Of a DNA stretch of 30,313 nt, positions 3,992 through 27,806 are shown in pieces. The stretch is taken from the IMG/VR virus record IMGVR_UViG_3300047274_000119, positions 1-30,313 of that record; one strand, 5' to 3'. The translations under genes and the position numbers were made by a program. Numbering within the stretch: position 1 is the stretch's first letter; every line of letters begins with the position of its first letter. Source of the DNA: a virus. The notes under the pieces were generated by a model. The model saw only the letters and a program-made list of their open reading frames with translations, searched no databases and was not told the DNA's origin.

Positions 3992-4798
3992 ATGAGCGAA
4001 GAGACAATCCAGGGTACTGGATCTCCTGAAGCCACCAGCACGGCAGCACCTGCGCCGGTTGGGTTCCTAGACAGCCTTCCCGAAGATCTGCGCAATGAGC
4101 CGAGCTTGCGGCTGTTCAGCGATCCCGCGTCGTTGGCAAAGAGCTATGTGCATGCGCAGCGTATGATTGGCGCGGACAAGATCCCGTTGCCGGGTAAGTC
4201 GGCCACGGATGATGAGTGGCGCCAGGTGTATCGTCGCCTGGGCGCACCGGAAGATCCGAAGGCCTATGACATCAAGCTTGGCGCTGATGTGATGGGCGAC
4301 AATGAGATGCAGGCTTTCCGCGCGGCTGCGCTGGAGGCTGGGCTGAACAATCGGCAGGCCAGCCGCATTGCGCAGTTTATCGAAAGCACTGTGAGCCAAG
4401 CGCGTGAGGCGCAAGGCACCAATGTTGAATCGGTTCTGCGCGAGAGCGAACAGGAGCTGCGGCAGGAATGGGGCCAGGCGTTTGACCAGAAGCTGTCTTT
4501 GGCCAACCGTGCGGCGACGACGTTCTTGGGCAGCACTGAGCTGTTGGACACAATTGAGTTGGCTGATGGGCGGTTGCTGGGCGATCACCCGGCGATCGTG
4601 AAGATGTTCGCGAACCTTGCCAATGAGATTGGCGAGGATCGTTTGCTGGGCGAATCGACCGAGCTGGTGATGACGCCGGCGGATGCTCAACAGAAGATCA
4701 GCGAGATTACTAGACAGGGTACCCCATATTGGGATAAGTTTCACCCTGAGCATCGTCAGTATGTCGATGAGGCCCTGCGCCTGAGAGAGTACATGTGA
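3992..4798 (+). CDS. Capsid assembly scaffolding protein
   Basis: Scaffold proteins guide assembly of the procapsid from the major capsid protein and are lost or degraded before DNA packaging. This 268-residue protein is acidic and mostly helical, with a low-complexity Ala/Pro/Ser/Thr start (1-25). A conserved block around residues 26-95 holds FLDSLPEDLRNEPSL, a SYVHAQRMIG segment and LGAPEDPKAYD. The rest is charged helix ending in a short Arg-rich tail (ALRLREYM). It starts 9 nt after the preceding stop behind AAGGAAAC. The place between connector and capsid is exactly that of T7 gene 9. Confidence in the role is high from context plus the conserved block. Confidence 0.88.
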   Translation: MSEETIQGTGSPEATSTAAPAPVGFLDSLPEDLRNEPSLRLFSDPASLAKSYVHAQRMIGADKIPLPGKSATDDEWRQVYRRLGAPEDPKAYDIKLGADVMGDNEMQAFRAAALEAGLNNRQASRIAQFIESTVSQAREAQGTNVESVLRESEQELRQEWGQAFDQKLSLANRAATTFLGSTELLDTIELADGRLLGDHPAIVKMFANLANEIGEDRLLGESTELVMTPADAQQKISEITRQGTPYWDKFHPEHRQYVDEALRLREYM

Positions 4799-4815
4799 TG
4801 CGGCGGATAATCTTC

Positions 4816-4905
4816 GGACCCGCGCGTCAAGCCTGTGAGCCAGGTGGATTGACTGCCCAAGCAGTAAGCACGGTCCTGCAAGGGGCAACCGAGCGTAGCA
4901 ACCCT
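4816..4905 (+). ncRNA. Candidate structured RNA leader upstream of the capsid gene
   Basis: The 133-bp gap between scaffold stop (4798) and capsid start (4932) holds no gene but can fold as a three-way junction. GGACC at 4816-4820 pairs with GGTCC at 4872-4876, extended by GCGC 4822-4825 against GCAC 4868-4871 with one mismatch. Inside are a hairpin CCTG-TGAGC-CAGG (4832-4844) and a hairpin ACTGC-CCAA-GCAGT (4852-4865). Downstream, CCT-GCAA-GGG (4875-4884) competes with AGGG 4881-4884 pairing to CCCT 4902-4905, so two exclusive folds are possible. A candidate cis element controlling capsid translation or mRNA processing. I made the pairing by eye and computed no energy. Confidence 0.45.
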
Positions 4906-4931
4906 GAAACCTTTGTTGGAGTGAAAGACTG

Positions 4932-5795
4932 ATGTCTACTCAAATCACTACGGCATTCGTCAATCAGTTTTCCGCGAACGTCCAGATGCTGTCGCAGCAG
5001 ATGGGTTCGCTGCTGCGCAATGCAGTGGACGTGGAAACTGTGAACGGCGAAAAAGCCTTCTTCGATCAGGTCGGTAGCGCTGCTGCTGTCCTGCGCACCT
5101 CGCGTCATGCGGACACCCCCCTGATTGATACGCCGCATTCGCGTCGTATGGTCACCATGTCGGACTACGAATACGCCGACCTGATTGACGATCAGGACAA
5201 GGTGCGCCTGCTTGTCGATCCGACCTCGACCTACTCGCGTGCAGCTGCTGCCGCCATGGGTCGTGCAATGGACGACGTGATCATCTCGGCTGCTCTGGGT
5301 ACTGCCCTGACCGGCAAGGATGGTGGCACCTCGACCGCTTTCGCCACGGCAACCAACCAGATCGCCGCTGGCGCCACTGGTCTGACGCTGGCAAAGCTGA
5401 TCCAGGCCAAGGAAATCTTGGATGCTGGTGACGTTGATCCGTCGATCCCGCGCTACATCGCGGTCTCGCCGAAGCAGATCTCAAACCTGCTCAACAGCAC
5501 CACCGTGACTTCCTCGGATTTCAACACCGTCAAGGCTCTGGCGATGGGCGAGATCAACAGCTTCGTTGGTTTCAACTTCATCGTGACGAACCGTCTTGGT
5601 GTTGATGGCTCCGCTGCACGTCGCGTCATCGCTTTCGCGATGGACGGCATCAAGCTGGCGATTGGCCGTGAGCCGACCGCACGCATTGATGAGCGTGCTG
5701 ACAAGTCGTATGCGACCCAGATCTACTATGCGATGACGCTTGGCGCCACCCGCATGGAAGAGAAGAAGGTCGTTGAAGTCCTCTGTGCAGAATAA
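4932..5795 (+). CDS. Major capsid protein
   Basis: This is the main shell protein. It follows the scaffold gene and precedes a small structural gene, as in T7-like phages. At 287 residues it is shorter than T7 gp10A. Conserved features include the N-terminal FSANVQMLSQQMGS helix and GEKAFFDQVGS near residues 38-48. An RRMVTMSDYEYADLIDDQD segment near 71-89 is typical of capsid proteins in this group of short-tailed phages. The end is GATRMEEKKVVEV. An HK97-type fold is expected from the family and is not visible directly. The ATG at 4932 follows GGAGTGAAAG. Codon choice shifts here to C-ending codons (ATC, GCC, CTG), as expected for a very highly expressed gene. Confidence 0.92.
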   Translation: MSTQITTAFVNQFSANVQMLSQQMGSLLRNAVDVETVNGEKAFFDQVGSAAAVLRTSRHADTPLIDTPHSRRMVTMSDYEYADLIDDQDKVRLLVDPTSTYSRAAAAAMGRAMDDVIISAALGTALTGKDGGTSTAFATATNQIAAGATGLTLAKLIQAKEILDAGDVDPSIPRYIAVSPKQISNLLNSTTVTSSDFNTVKALAMGEINSFVGFNFIVTNRLGVDGSAARRVIAFAMDGIKLAIGREPTARIDERADKSYATQIYYAMTLGATRMEEKKVVEVLCAE

Positions 5796-21847: not shown

Positions 21848-22071
21848 TTGGACGCATCGTAGGAATGCTTGTTGGCCGCAAGCTGAAAGAGAAGGCCGTT
21901 GATGCTGTGCTGGACAAGGTGAACCTGCCTGACCCGGTTGAGAACGCGATCAAGATTGCAGCCACGGGCAACGTCGGCGATCTGCTCGGCGGCATGGGCA
22001 AGGACATGGCGCAGGAAGCTGTGCTTGGTGAGATCACCAAGAAGGTTCGCATCAGAAAGCCGAAGAAGTGA
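21844..22071 (+). CDS. Small basic hypothetical protein (75 aa)
   Basis: A 75-residue protein overlapping the holin candidate by 4 nt (ATGA) and the nuclease start by 4 nt (GTGA). It begins with an amphipathic stretch (MIGRIVGMLVGRKLKEKAVDAVLDKV), quoted for its G-R-I-V-G core, then a middle Gly-rich segment (GNVGDLLGGMG) and a basic tail (KKVRIRKPKK). There is no clear membrane span. It might sit on the inner membrane face. Function unknown. Confidence 0.6.
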   Translation: MIGRIVGMLVGRKLKEKAVDAVLDKVNLPDPVENAIKIAATGNVGDLLGGMGKDMAQEAVLGEITKKVRIRKPKK

Positions 22072-22469
22072 AGTGGCTGGCCCTGCTCCTACTGACGGCT
22101 GCGCCTGCTCATGCTTATGAAATTACCCGCGTCATTGACGGCGATACCGTGGAGATTGCGGTGGATTTTCTTCCGTCGCCCCTGCCGCCCAAGCTGTCAA
22201 TCAGGGTCATCGGCATCGATACCCCAGAGAAAGCACCTCGCGCTCAATGCGACGCGGAAGCAGCTTTGGCTAAGAAAGCCAGCGCCTTTACAAAAGACGC
22301 GGTTGCCAATGCGCTTGAGGTCGATGTCAAAATCTTGAAGTGGGACAAGTACGGTGGCCGGGTGCTGGGGACCATCTTTCTAGACCACCAGAGCCTAGCT
22401 GAAAGCCTGATCTCTGCCGGCCTGGCTCGCCCCTACAAGGGCGATGCGAAACAATCCTGGTGTGAATGA
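22068..22469 (+). CDS. Secreted staphylococcal-type nuclease (SNase family)
   Basis: A calcium-dependent nuclease of the SNase (thermonuclease) fold that cleaves DNA and RNA. The GTG start at 22068 overlaps the previous stop (GTGA). Residues 1-16 form a signal peptide ending AHA. The family's key residues are present: Asp26 in IDGDTVE, Arg46, Asp51, Thr52 and Glu54 in RVIGIDTPE, and Arg98 in YGGRVLG. These correspond to Asp21, Arg35, Asp40, Thr41, Glu43 and Arg87 of the S. aureus enzyme. At 133 residues it is a minimal single domain. A secreted nuclease in the lysis cassette suggests it acts in the periplasm or during lysis, degrading host or competing DNA. Confidence 0.9.
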   Translation: MKWLALLLLTAAPAHAYEITRVIDGDTVEIAVDFLPSPLPPKLSIRVIGIDTPEKAPRAQCDAEAALAKKASAFTKDAVANALEVDVKILKWDKYGGRVLGTIFLDHQSLAESLISAGLARPYKGDAKQSWCE

Positions 22470-22480
22470 GGAGATAGACA

Positions 22481-23359
22481 ATGAGCCTTCTGACCGAAGC
22501 CCAACTGGCGGCTATGATCCCGACCAACAAAGAGGTTGCCGCCTGGTGCGAGGAGCTGAACAAAGCCTTGCCCAAATACGACATCACGACGCCGGAAAGG
22601 ATCGCTGGCTTTATCAGCCAGTGCGCCCATGAGAGCATGGACTTCAACGCCATGTCCGAAAACCTGAACTACCGCGAAGAGACCTTGAACAAGGTGTTCC
22701 CGCGTTACTTCGGACCAGGCAAGCGCAACGCTGCAGAGTATGCTCGGAACCCTGAGAAAATTGCCAACTACGTCTACATGGACGAGTTCCGCACCAGCAA
22801 GCTAGGCAATACCCAGCCCGGTGACGGCTGGCGCTTCCGTGGGCGTGGCCTGAAGCAGCTCACCGGGCGGGACAACTACACCCGCTTTGCCAAAGACTAC
22901 GACATGACAGCGGAAGAGGCTGCCGTGTGGGTCGAGACCAAAGAGGGTGCGTTGGCATCGGCCCTGTGGTTCTGGAACACCAACAACCTGAACCCGATTG
23001 CTGACACTGGCAACGTGGCTGCACTCACGAAGAAGATCAACGGCGGGAACATCGGCCTAGCCGATCGCAAGCAGCGCTACGACAAAGCCATGGCTGTGCT
23101 GACGGGCAAGATCCCCTTGCGTGCAGCCAACAGCAAGACTGCCCCGGTCAATCCGCAGATCACCGACGCTGTCACGCAGATCCTGCGCAAAGGATCTAAG
23201 GGTGATGCGGTTAAGAAGATGCAGGCTGCGCTCGGCATCAAGGCTGACGGCGACTTCGGCCCCGGCACTGAGGCTGCGCTGAAGAAGTGGCAGGCAAGCA
23301 ATGGACTGACGGCTGACGGTGTGGCCGGACCAAAGACACTTGGCAAACTGATTGGGTGA
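22481..23359 (+). CDS. Endolysin: GH19 chitinase-like domain plus peptidoglycan-binding domain
   Basis: This enzyme cleaves the glycan strands of the cell wall at the end of infection. Residues about 15-210 are a GH19 lysozyme/chitinase-like domain. The two acidic residues expected at the active site are Glu51 in CAHES and Glu60 in SENLNY, and the substrate-groove segment WRFRGRGLKQLTGRDNY follows near 117-133. A linker with basic residues leads to a peptidoglycan-binding domain at about 225-292 (GSKGDAVKKMQAALG, DGDFGPGTEAALKKWQ, DGVAGPKTLGKL). No signal peptide is present, so export needs a holin. The start has GGAG 11 nt upstream. Confidence 0.94.
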   Translation: MSLLTEAQLAAMIPTNKEVAAWCEELNKALPKYDITTPERIAGFISQCAHESMDFNAMSENLNYREETLNKVFPRYFGPGKRNAAEYARNPEKIANYVYMDEFRTSKLGNTQPGDGWRFRGRGLKQLTGRDNYTRFAKDYDMTAEEAAVWVETKEGALASALWFWNTNNLNPIADTGNVAALTKKINGGNIGLADRKQRYDKAMAVLTGKIPLRAANSKTAPVNPQITDAVTQILRKGSKGDAVKKMQAALGIKADGDFGPGTEAALKKWQASNGLTADGVAGPKTLGKLIG

Positions 23360-26366: not shown

Positions 26367-26538
26367 TGTTCTTTTCCAGTTCTGCAAGTTGTTGCTCGGC
26401 GTCGCGCAGGTAAAAGCACAGGATGCCGATGTCCTCTCCGATAGCGGCGGATCTGACACCAGTTCCGTGCAGCCGCTCAAGATCCGCGATCTGTTGTTTC
26501 TTCAGTTCGATGTAGGCGAGTAGGTCTTGCTTGCTCAT
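26353..26538 (-). CDS. Small coiled-coil protein (61 aa)
   Basis: A 61-residue protein overlapping the methyltransferase stop by 4 nt (ATGA) and the next gene by 14 nt. It is two helices with heptads ([20 protein letters not shown] and YLRDAEQQLAELEKNNATD). One Cys is near the middle. No DNA-binding or membrane motif. It could pair with the neighbouring coiled-coil proteins. Function unknown. Confidence 0.6.
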   Translation of the reverse strand: MSKQDLLAYIELKKQQIADLERLHGTGVRSAAIGEDIGILCFYLRDAEQQLAELEKNNATD

Positions 26539-27806
26539 TCTAGTATCTCCATTACGCTTTCGATGAAGGTTTGCGCGACCGGGGCAGCGATGGCATTGCC
26601 GTAACCGCGCAGTCGTCCCACTCTGGCGGCAGACCCATGAGCCAGCGGGAATGTGCTGGGTTCAACTGGCCGCCACTTTCCATCCCGGCAGAAGAGCCAA
26701 TCAGCATCTCGCCAGAAACCGTTAGTCGGGCCGCTTGAAAGGTATCGCTGGGCCATGTCCACATTTTCGTCAGGTCCGACAGCGCCACTTGCTTGTGGAC
26801 CCCCTTCGCTTTGTGCCGAGAGTGCGCTGCGTTGAAACTCTCCTCCGTCGCGTAGCCCGCGTTGAAACTGTCGTGAACCTGCGGCGTCGGCCAGCCTGCA
26901 ATCCAAGCCACCCTCGGCACCGTGTCGTCCCGCATCTGGCCGTCCCTCCGAAACATTGAACCCTCCAGATTGCCCGTGTCCTTGTGGTCCCGTGTCGTCG
27001 GCGTCGGCCATCCCGCCATCAGCACGAAGTCGTTCAGATTGTTCGACCGATCCGGGTTCTCCACCCGATCCTCCCCGCCCGATCTGAAGTCCCGCATCTG
27101 CGGCGTCGGCCAGCCTGTCATAGCTTCCTGCATCCTGCGCGATGGTTTCCCCAGCATCGCCTTCGCCATTTCTGGCAGTGGCGCTTGCGATCCCGTGTCT
27201 GACGTTGTCGGCGTCGGCCAGCCTGTCAGGCGTTCCGCTACAGACGGCAATGATGGGCTGAACTGGCCTTGGCCTTCTGTGTGATGATCCCGCATCTTCG
27301 GCGTCGGCCAGCCCAACAAACCAGAGGCGCTGTCTGATATGCGGCGCGCCGACGCCCGCAGCGCACAGATCAGCAGCCCCAAAGGCGTAGCCCGTTGCTT
27401 CCATGTCAGCGTGTACAAGGTCGAGCCAGCCGAGGCCGTCCTTGCTTGCAACCTGCTCGCCAAAGACGACTGAAGGGCGGCACTGGCTGATGAGATGGTG
27501 CCAGTGCGGCCAGAGGTGCCGCTGGTCATCAAACCCGCCTCTTGCACCTGCCGCGCTGAAAGGCTGGCACGGGCAGCTTCCTGTCCAAACAGGACGGTCG
27601 TCGGCCCAGCCTGCGGATCGCAAGGCGTAGGACCAGACCCCGATGCCCGCGAAGAAGTGGCACTGAGTGAAGCCTCTGAGTTCATCAGGGGTAACATCGA
27701 CAATTGATCGGTCATCCACCACTCCATCGGCTATGTGGCCTTGCTTGATAAGTTCCCGCAGCCATGCGGCGGCCTTGGGGTCGATCTCGTTGTAATAGGC
27801 GGTCAT
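26535..27806 (-). CDS. dcm: DNA cytosine-5 methyltransferase
   Basis: Transfers a methyl group from S-adenosylmethionine to carbon 5 of cytosine. Motif I is FAGIG at residues 52-56 (SAM binding). Motif IV is GSCPCQPFS at 76-84 with catalytic Cys80. Motif VI is FGEQV near 115-119 (Gln where ENV is usual), motif VIII is RQRLWFVG at 158-165, and motif X is [10 protein letters not shown] near 399-408. Residues 165-330 form the variable target-recognition region, with repeated RLADA or MADAD units. The product starts [19 protein letters not shown], typical of phage enzymes I recall. No partner restriction enzyme is present, so self-protection against host restriction is likely. A second frame inside the gene is described separately. 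Confidence 0.92.
26552..27715 (-). CDS. Overlapping frame inside the methyltransferase gene, GWPTP-repeat protein (387 aa)
   Basis: An open frame of 387 codons runs inside the methyltransferase gene, same strand, different frame. ATG 27715 ([10 protein letters not shown]) has GGAG at 27722-27725 six bases upstream. Early segments include [20 protein letters not shown] and [11 protein letters not shown]. Five GWPTP-x-x-x-x-D units (KMRD, TTSD, QMRD, TTRD, QVHD) fill the middle. The end reads [21 protein letters not shown] recall near-identical motif sets in many bacterial and phage database proteins, usually called hypothetical or methylase. The same DNA repeat gives GWPTP in this frame and LADA in the enzyme frame. 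It may be a real dual-coding gene or a conserved shadow; I favour real but uncertain. Confidence 0.4.
26883..27315 (+). repeat. Five imperfect direct repeats in the target-recognition region
   Basis: The 16-mer GGCGTCGGCCAGCCTG (plus strand) occurs exactly at 26883, 27102 and 27210, and with changes at 27000 (ending ATCCCG) and 27300 (ending AGCCCA). Start-to-start spacing is 117, 102, 108 and 90 bp, all multiples of three, so both overlapping frames keep their phase. Four of the copies have a TCCCG (T/C)(A/G)TC-type stretch shortly before them. They encode LADA in the methyltransferase frame and GWPTP in the other. They are coding repeats, not CRISPR repeats, because they are inside an intact gene and the gaps are coding. 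Confidence 0.8.

Follow-up and report, generated by a model that had tools for sequence, protein, structure and literature searches.

The window analysed here, a single virus record of 30,313 bases, contains a 133-nt gap between a scaffold-like gene ending at 4798 and the major capsid protein (MCP) gene starting at 4932; the earlier note on this DNA had pointed to a long gap upstream of the capsid gene. The flanking genes were assigned with PHROG and Pfam, and the locus is organized as follows.

3992 to 4798, plus strand: scaffold-like or capsid assembly gene, upstream of the gap (phrog_3742)
4799 to 4931, plus strand: leader, i.e. the intergenic region between the scaffold-like gene and the MCP gene
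4916 to 4921, plus strand: probable Shine-Dalgarno sequence TTGGAG of the MCP gene, identified from the sequence; the ATG at 4932 lies 10 nt downstream
4932 to 5795, plus strand: MCP gene (phrog_3437, Pfam Phage_capsid_2)

Homologues of the scaffold-like gene carry the names "putative protease" or "capsid assembly protein", and Pfam detects no RNA-binding domain in the proteins flanking the leader. The MCP shares 60-72% identity with those of cultured HTVC010P-type pelagiphages and up to 97% with those of environmental contigs; the gap is strongly conserved in about 75 environmental relatives, with a usual length of 120-145 nt. Elsewhere in the window, an ORF at 26535-27806 (minus strand) resembles a DNA cytosine methyltransferase (PCQPFS motif) and is overlapped by a long same-strand ORF in another frame. 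An ORF at 22068-22469 (plus strand), which resembles a secreted thermonuclease of the staphylococcal-nuclease type and has an apparent signal peptide, lies upstream of a probable endolysin gene (22481-23359).

To describe the fold of the leader, 52 distinct leaders from relatives were aligned with MAFFT on sequence only (alignment A1). Run on this alignment without guidance, RNAalifold returned a consensus of four separate hairpins (HP1 to HP4). To this consensus we added by hand one further pair in HP3 and the outer HP4 pairs, and we scored the resulting comparative fold. Among the 52 relatives, 97.4% of its cells are paired, versus 87.2% after shuffling; two-sided changes are found in 15 of the 23 pairs, and double changes number 116, versus 24.3 in shuffled alignments. 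When the same fold was slid along the alignment as a control, only 23-37% of cells could pair. Folded alone, positions 4816-4905 do no better than chance (z = +0.35, with 129 of 200 shuffles folding at least as well), and single-sequence folding energy was dropped as an uninformative criterion. In the window, the conserved elements, all on the plus strand, are the following.

4803 to 4823, plus strand: HP1, type A (GCGG-AUAA-UC-UUCG-GA-C-CCGC), with outer pairs 4803-4806/4820-4823, inner pairs 4811-4812/4817-4818 and a UUCG tetraloop; from the RNAalifold consensus, two-sided changes in both stems and the motif scan
4807 to 4810, plus strand: AUAA of the HP1 internal loop, opposite C4819; from the motif scan
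4831 to 4845, plus strand: HP2, pairs 4831-4835/4841-4845; 98.5% of cells paired, two-sided changes in four of five pairs
4846 to 4858, plus strand: pseudoknot, GG 4846-4847 paired to the HP3-loop CC 4857-4858; from covariation
4852 to 4865, plus strand: HP3, pairs 4852-4856/4861-4865, loop CCAA; 96.9% of cells paired, two-sided changes in four of five pairs
4868 to 4894, plus strand: HP4, type B, with outer pairs 4868-4869/4893-4894 and 4872-4873/4889-4890 and inner pairs 4875-4877/4882-4884; from covariation and the motif scan
4885 to 4888, plus strand: GCAA of the HP4 internal loop, opposite U4874; from the motif scan
4892 to 4899, plus strand: conserved 3' tail AGCGTAGC (consensus AGCGCAGC), formed by nearly invariant alignment columns

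A conserved structured RNA is thus present, as the earlier note had proposed, but its fold and extent differ (about 4803-4899, instead of 4816-4905). That note had described a three-way junction. Its two internal hairpins correspond to HP2 and HP3 (4831-4845, and 4852-4865 with loop CCAA), but its single junction finds no support and its closing stem (GGACC 4816-4820 with GGUCC 4872-4876) is wrong: the 5' half of this stem is part of HP1 and the 3' half part of HP4. Together with the pairs proposed further downstream, the closing stem is paired in 63.8% of cells across the 52 relatives versus 63.4% for shuffled columns and shows no excess covariation, and it was rejected on these grounds. An excess of the compensatory changes for which the earlier note proposed to look is therefore seen for the four-hairpin fold, and not for the stem that it had drawn.

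A weighted covariation scan of a larger, model-aligned set (91 matches, 64 after removal of near-duplicates) recovers the stems and places at rank 4 a column pair outside them, formed by the G following HP2 and a C of the HP3 loop. This pair occurs as GC in 40 sequences, CG in 12 and AU in eight, i.e. as three Watson-Crick types, and the two-pair helix to which it belongs forms in 100% of the sequences of the unguided alignment A1. With the pseudoknot included, 97.6% of cells are paired among the 52 relatives and two-sided changes rise to 124, versus 25.6 expected. The HP3 loop thus pairs with the linker GG, not with the Shine-Dalgarno sequence; pairing of the loop (CCUAA or CCAA) with the latter in the window's group was considered and discarded, as it showed no excess over swapped ribosome-binding sites (RBSs).

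Might the palindromes be those of a DNA-level element, such as a packaging or recombination site, and only resemble an RNA? Some relatives do have strong inverted repeats (for example GGATAACCTTTCC/GGAAAGGTTATCC in L189). However, the first HP3 pair is GU in 20 of the 52 leaders and never UG, and such G·U pairs kept one way round point to a plus-strand RNA rather than to DNA. The three pair types of the pseudoknot, the GNRA- or UUCG-like tetraloops of many members, and the fixed strand and distance relative to the MCP gene also speak against a DNA element, which we regard as very improbable. We conclude from the alignments that the gap holds a conserved structured RNA, with compensatory changes across a large phage group that includes abundant ocean phages, and that four hairpins and a pseudoknot make up its architecture, in which an internal-loop motif is repeated.

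The distribution of the element was investigated with a covariance model (R1) of 116 positions spanning HP1-HP4, built from sequences that include the window and its close relatives. R1 matches the window at 4799-4914 with 102 bits, a score that, like those of its close relatives, is due in part to the presence of these sequences in the alignment of the model. In each of 14 group-A records (29-35 kb), exactly one match is found, at the MCP leader. Similarly, 74 (of 80) matches to the HP1 pattern in viral contigs fall 80-220 nt upstream of the MCP gene, on the same strand. In 257 Gb of bacterial genomes, the HP1 pattern has 80 matches, about the chance expectation, and none of them scores like the element. 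R1 fails on pelagiphage copies and on most group-C copies, which were identified through alignment and motif scan. Together with the covariation, the single copy per genome and the fixed place before the MCP gene strongly support the earlier suggestion of a capsid-specific structured leader.

That no named RNA family fits was also borne out. The window is without match in Rfam 15, as are the leaders of phiVC8, K300, CKB-S2, ZP6, Baldr and HTVC010P, and an Rfam search of six relatives yielded only two chance matches below threshold, both unrelated and away from the element. Distant blastn searches of the leader against phages gave chance matches only. To our knowledge, the internal-loop motif corresponds to no named family; resemblances to the theophylline aptamer and to ribozymes were set aside because core nucleotides are not shared. 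In the open literature that was searched, no description of the element was found; an earlier description elsewhere may exist. The element, a probable cis-regulatory RNA, represents a family new to Rfam and belongs among the structured leaders that precede phage structural genes.

The motif common to HP1 and HP4, which occur in opposite orientations, is an internal loop with R-N-A-R on one strand and a single Y on the other. The opposed first R and Y bases are A and C in most leaders, and G and U elsewhere, so that the loop can be described as an A·C or G·U mismatch followed by a bulge of three nucleotides, "NAR" (R = A or G). Since A·C and G·U wobbles can be isosteric, the internal loop resembles a single wobble pair with three bulged nucleotides. 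We refer to a hairpin with this loop as a receptor hairpin, and we searched a wider set for leaders with at least two of them (R-N-A-R opposite Y, with A/C or G/U) no more than about 200 nt upstream of the MCP gene. In the window, these are HP1 with AUAA/C and HP4 with GCAA/U, the mean in shuffles being 0.12 (P = 0.005). Two to three receptor hairpins were also detected by the descriptor scan before the MCP genes of phiVC8, K300, CKB-S2, Baldr, ct3Et533 and L301/L351, shuffled leaders averaging 0.07-0.17 each. ZP6 carries two adjacent GUAG/U copies, of which the stricter descriptor scan retained one, along with an upstream match. In other leaders, the scan found one copy and the second was read by eye; this is the case for ctVRi840 (AGAA/C by scan), HTVC010P, Greip, L346 and L292. 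Pelagiphages have a divergent version, in which HP1 was caught by the scan and HP4 read from the alignment; their leaders covary independently, with 98.9% of cells paired and 24 double changes versus 6.2. No match was obtained by the descriptor scan for YeP5, Acinetobacter MD-2021a, APEC, MT838907, PG9A-2, 1.182.O, Hodr and MEP301, the last four of which have the same MCP family, although MEP301 scores 29.6 bits with R1.

Two peculiarities were noted in these relatives. In L301 (3813-5335) and L351 (5464-6876), the MCP frame is broken after roughly 60-70 codons by a group-I-intron-like insert; the leaders of both contain three receptor hairpins and apparently lack the HP2/HP3 domain. In HTVC010P, a small annotated ORF of about 60 aa (gp08; L082 1227-1403) overlaps the pelagiphage HP1 and has equivalents in L083, L084 and L092; such ORFs carry automatic names ("tetratricopeptide repeat domain protein") that are perhaps spurious.

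A possible link with translation emerged when the pairing energy of each RBS with its own leader was compared to that with swapped ones. In group C, this energy is -14.8 kcal/mol for own leaders versus -10.4 for swapped ones, and pairing is stronger with the own leader in 16 of 21 cases. In L187-L198, the last 18 nt before the MCP gene contain an RBS that is a near-perfect complement of a motif arm (as in L189, cited above); the partner is the 3' arm of HP4 in L188-L190, L192, L194, L195, L197 and L198, and the 5' arm of HP1 in L187, L191 and L196. RBSs of the window's group A exhibit no special complementarity to their own leader (26 of 54 pair more strongly than with swapped ones), and pelagiphages show no excess over swapped leaders either. 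The mutually exclusive downstream pairings described in the earlier note consequently find no support in the window's group, where the pairing energy is -10.2 kcal/mol with own leaders versus -9.8 with others. The complementarity between RBS and motif arm, present in one subgroup of relatives, is nevertheless the best hint of translational control.

The mutually exclusive RBS pairing of group C, like the conserved identity of the internal loops, could also be expected of a riboswitch-like sensor, in which a small molecule bound at the two internal loops would alter RBS access. We consider this improbable: the controlled gene is structural rather than metabolic, Rfam gives no match, and receptor hairpins differ among leaders in orientation (A-B, A-A or B-B), number (two to three) and spacing. 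Judged from the sequences compared, such variation would suit repeated, modular protein sites better than a single folded pocket.

As for transcription signals, the scan listed no intrinsic terminator, defined by a T run after a GC-rich stem, in 4799-4931, and no sigma-70-like promoter was seen in the 133-nt gap of the window or in its group. A near-consensus sigma-70-like promoter is located directly upstream of the first hairpin in ZP6 (12 of 12 positions) and in phiVC8, JSF9 and K300 (11 of 12), and the RNA would therefore open the capsid transcript as a 5' leader in these four Vibrio or Alteromonas phages. At phiVC8 L484 506-557, immediately 5' of both receptor hairpins, an annotated rho-independent terminator overlaps the 11/12 promoter within an inverted repeat; as the same stretch holds a promoter just before the hairpins, this terminator annotation looks doubtful.

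Two hairpins near a predicted late transcript start, in Vibrio and Alteromonas phages, recall the put RNA of phage HK022, whose two hairpins act in cis in a phage transcript, and an element acting on RNA polymerase through antitermination or pausing could be envisaged. However, put follows early promoters and is not known to have the internal-loop rule or a link to the capsid, whereas the present element directly precedes one gene only, once per genome, and the RBS complementarity of group C suggests a translational output. A put-like role is thus quite improbable.

The same 5' position of the hairpins in ZP6, phiVC8 and K300, just past the promoter, would suit an RNA that protects or processes the capsid mRNA, as a 5' stabilizer or as an RNase landing or cleavage site prolonging transcript life. 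Leaders of phage late mRNAs can stabilize transcripts, and the capsid is the most needed product. Nevertheless, we find this explanation rather unlikely, as the conserved loop identity (A/C or G/U plus NAR bulge) and the pseudoknot exceed what a plain stem needs, the helices are short (4 + 2 bp in HP1) in contrast to the long RNase III sites that are known, and the RBS complementarity of group C favours translation.

The leader would control capsid translation or mRNA life, as the earlier note had suggested, and it probably tunes the amount of capsid protein made. More specifically, we see about an even chance that it is a cis-acting translational control element with repeated hairpins for which protein binding is predicted. 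The functional core would be the receptor hairpin, present twice (HP1 and HP4) with the pseudoknotted HP2/HP3 domain in between in the window's group, and a protein bound to both copies would set the frequency of ribosome initiation on the capsid gene. Initiation is proposed as the controlled step because the 3' hairpin mostly ends 30-40 nt before the MCP ATG and because the motif arm is complementary to the RBS in one subgroup. In group C, RBS pairing would open the hairpin, and a ligand keeping the hairpin closed would presumably free the RBS.

As the motif accompanies the capsid module in phages that infect Pelagibacter, Vibrio and Alteromonas, the most economical ligand would be a structural protein of the phage (the scaffold or the capsid protein), resulting in feedback coupled to assembly. 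We put forward this specific identification tentatively, a universal host factor being the main alternative.

Several known systems offer partial parallels. Autoregulation of the scaffolding protein gene in phage P22 also involves a dsDNA phage, its assembly module and post-transcriptional feedback on a head-assembly gene. However, control in P22 is exerted on the scaffold gene itself, whereas the present RNA lies before the capsid gene and has a putative ligand; moreover, we know of no conserved RNA pair with such an internal loop in P22. Like the coat operator of MS2-type ssRNA phages, the receptor hairpin is short and has a distinctive unpaired feature close to a start codon (the operator binding one protein in MS2), and some relatives even contain GGAUUACC. 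Recognition in MS2 relies on a bulged A and the tetraloop, whereas here the internal loop is conserved and terminal loops vary, and the MS2 coat protein is unrelated to the HK97-type capsid. The gene 10 leader of T7 similarly precedes the capsid gene of a T7-like podovirus and has a promoter upstream (as in some relatives here), but this promoter is that of the phage RNA polymerase and the leader is simple, without a known repeated internal-loop motif. Finally, ribosomal-protein operon leaders provide a working model for feedback by a structural protein on the leader of its own mRNA, although no rRNA mimic was identified in the MCP leader, whose protein ligand is putative.

The RNA family described here precedes the capsid gene in HTVC010P-type pelagiphages and in cultured Vibrio and Alteromonas phages. 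The internal-loop rule yields precise, testable mutations, carriers are available in culture (phiVC8, ZP6 and HTVC010P), and the small size of the two-hairpin core would allow its transfer to a reporter. The family bears on the question of how a very high, stoichiometric capsid output is set in phages that lack a strong late polymerase. Possibly, in a large dsDNA phage group that includes abundant pelagiphages, HK97-type capsid or scaffold proteins recognize the repeated hairpin with its A·C or G·U mismatch and NAR bulge as an assembly-sensing operator in the capsid mRNA. If this tentative view is true, capsids of dsDNA phages would have an RNA-operator system comparable, though unrelated, to the coat operator of ssRNA phages.
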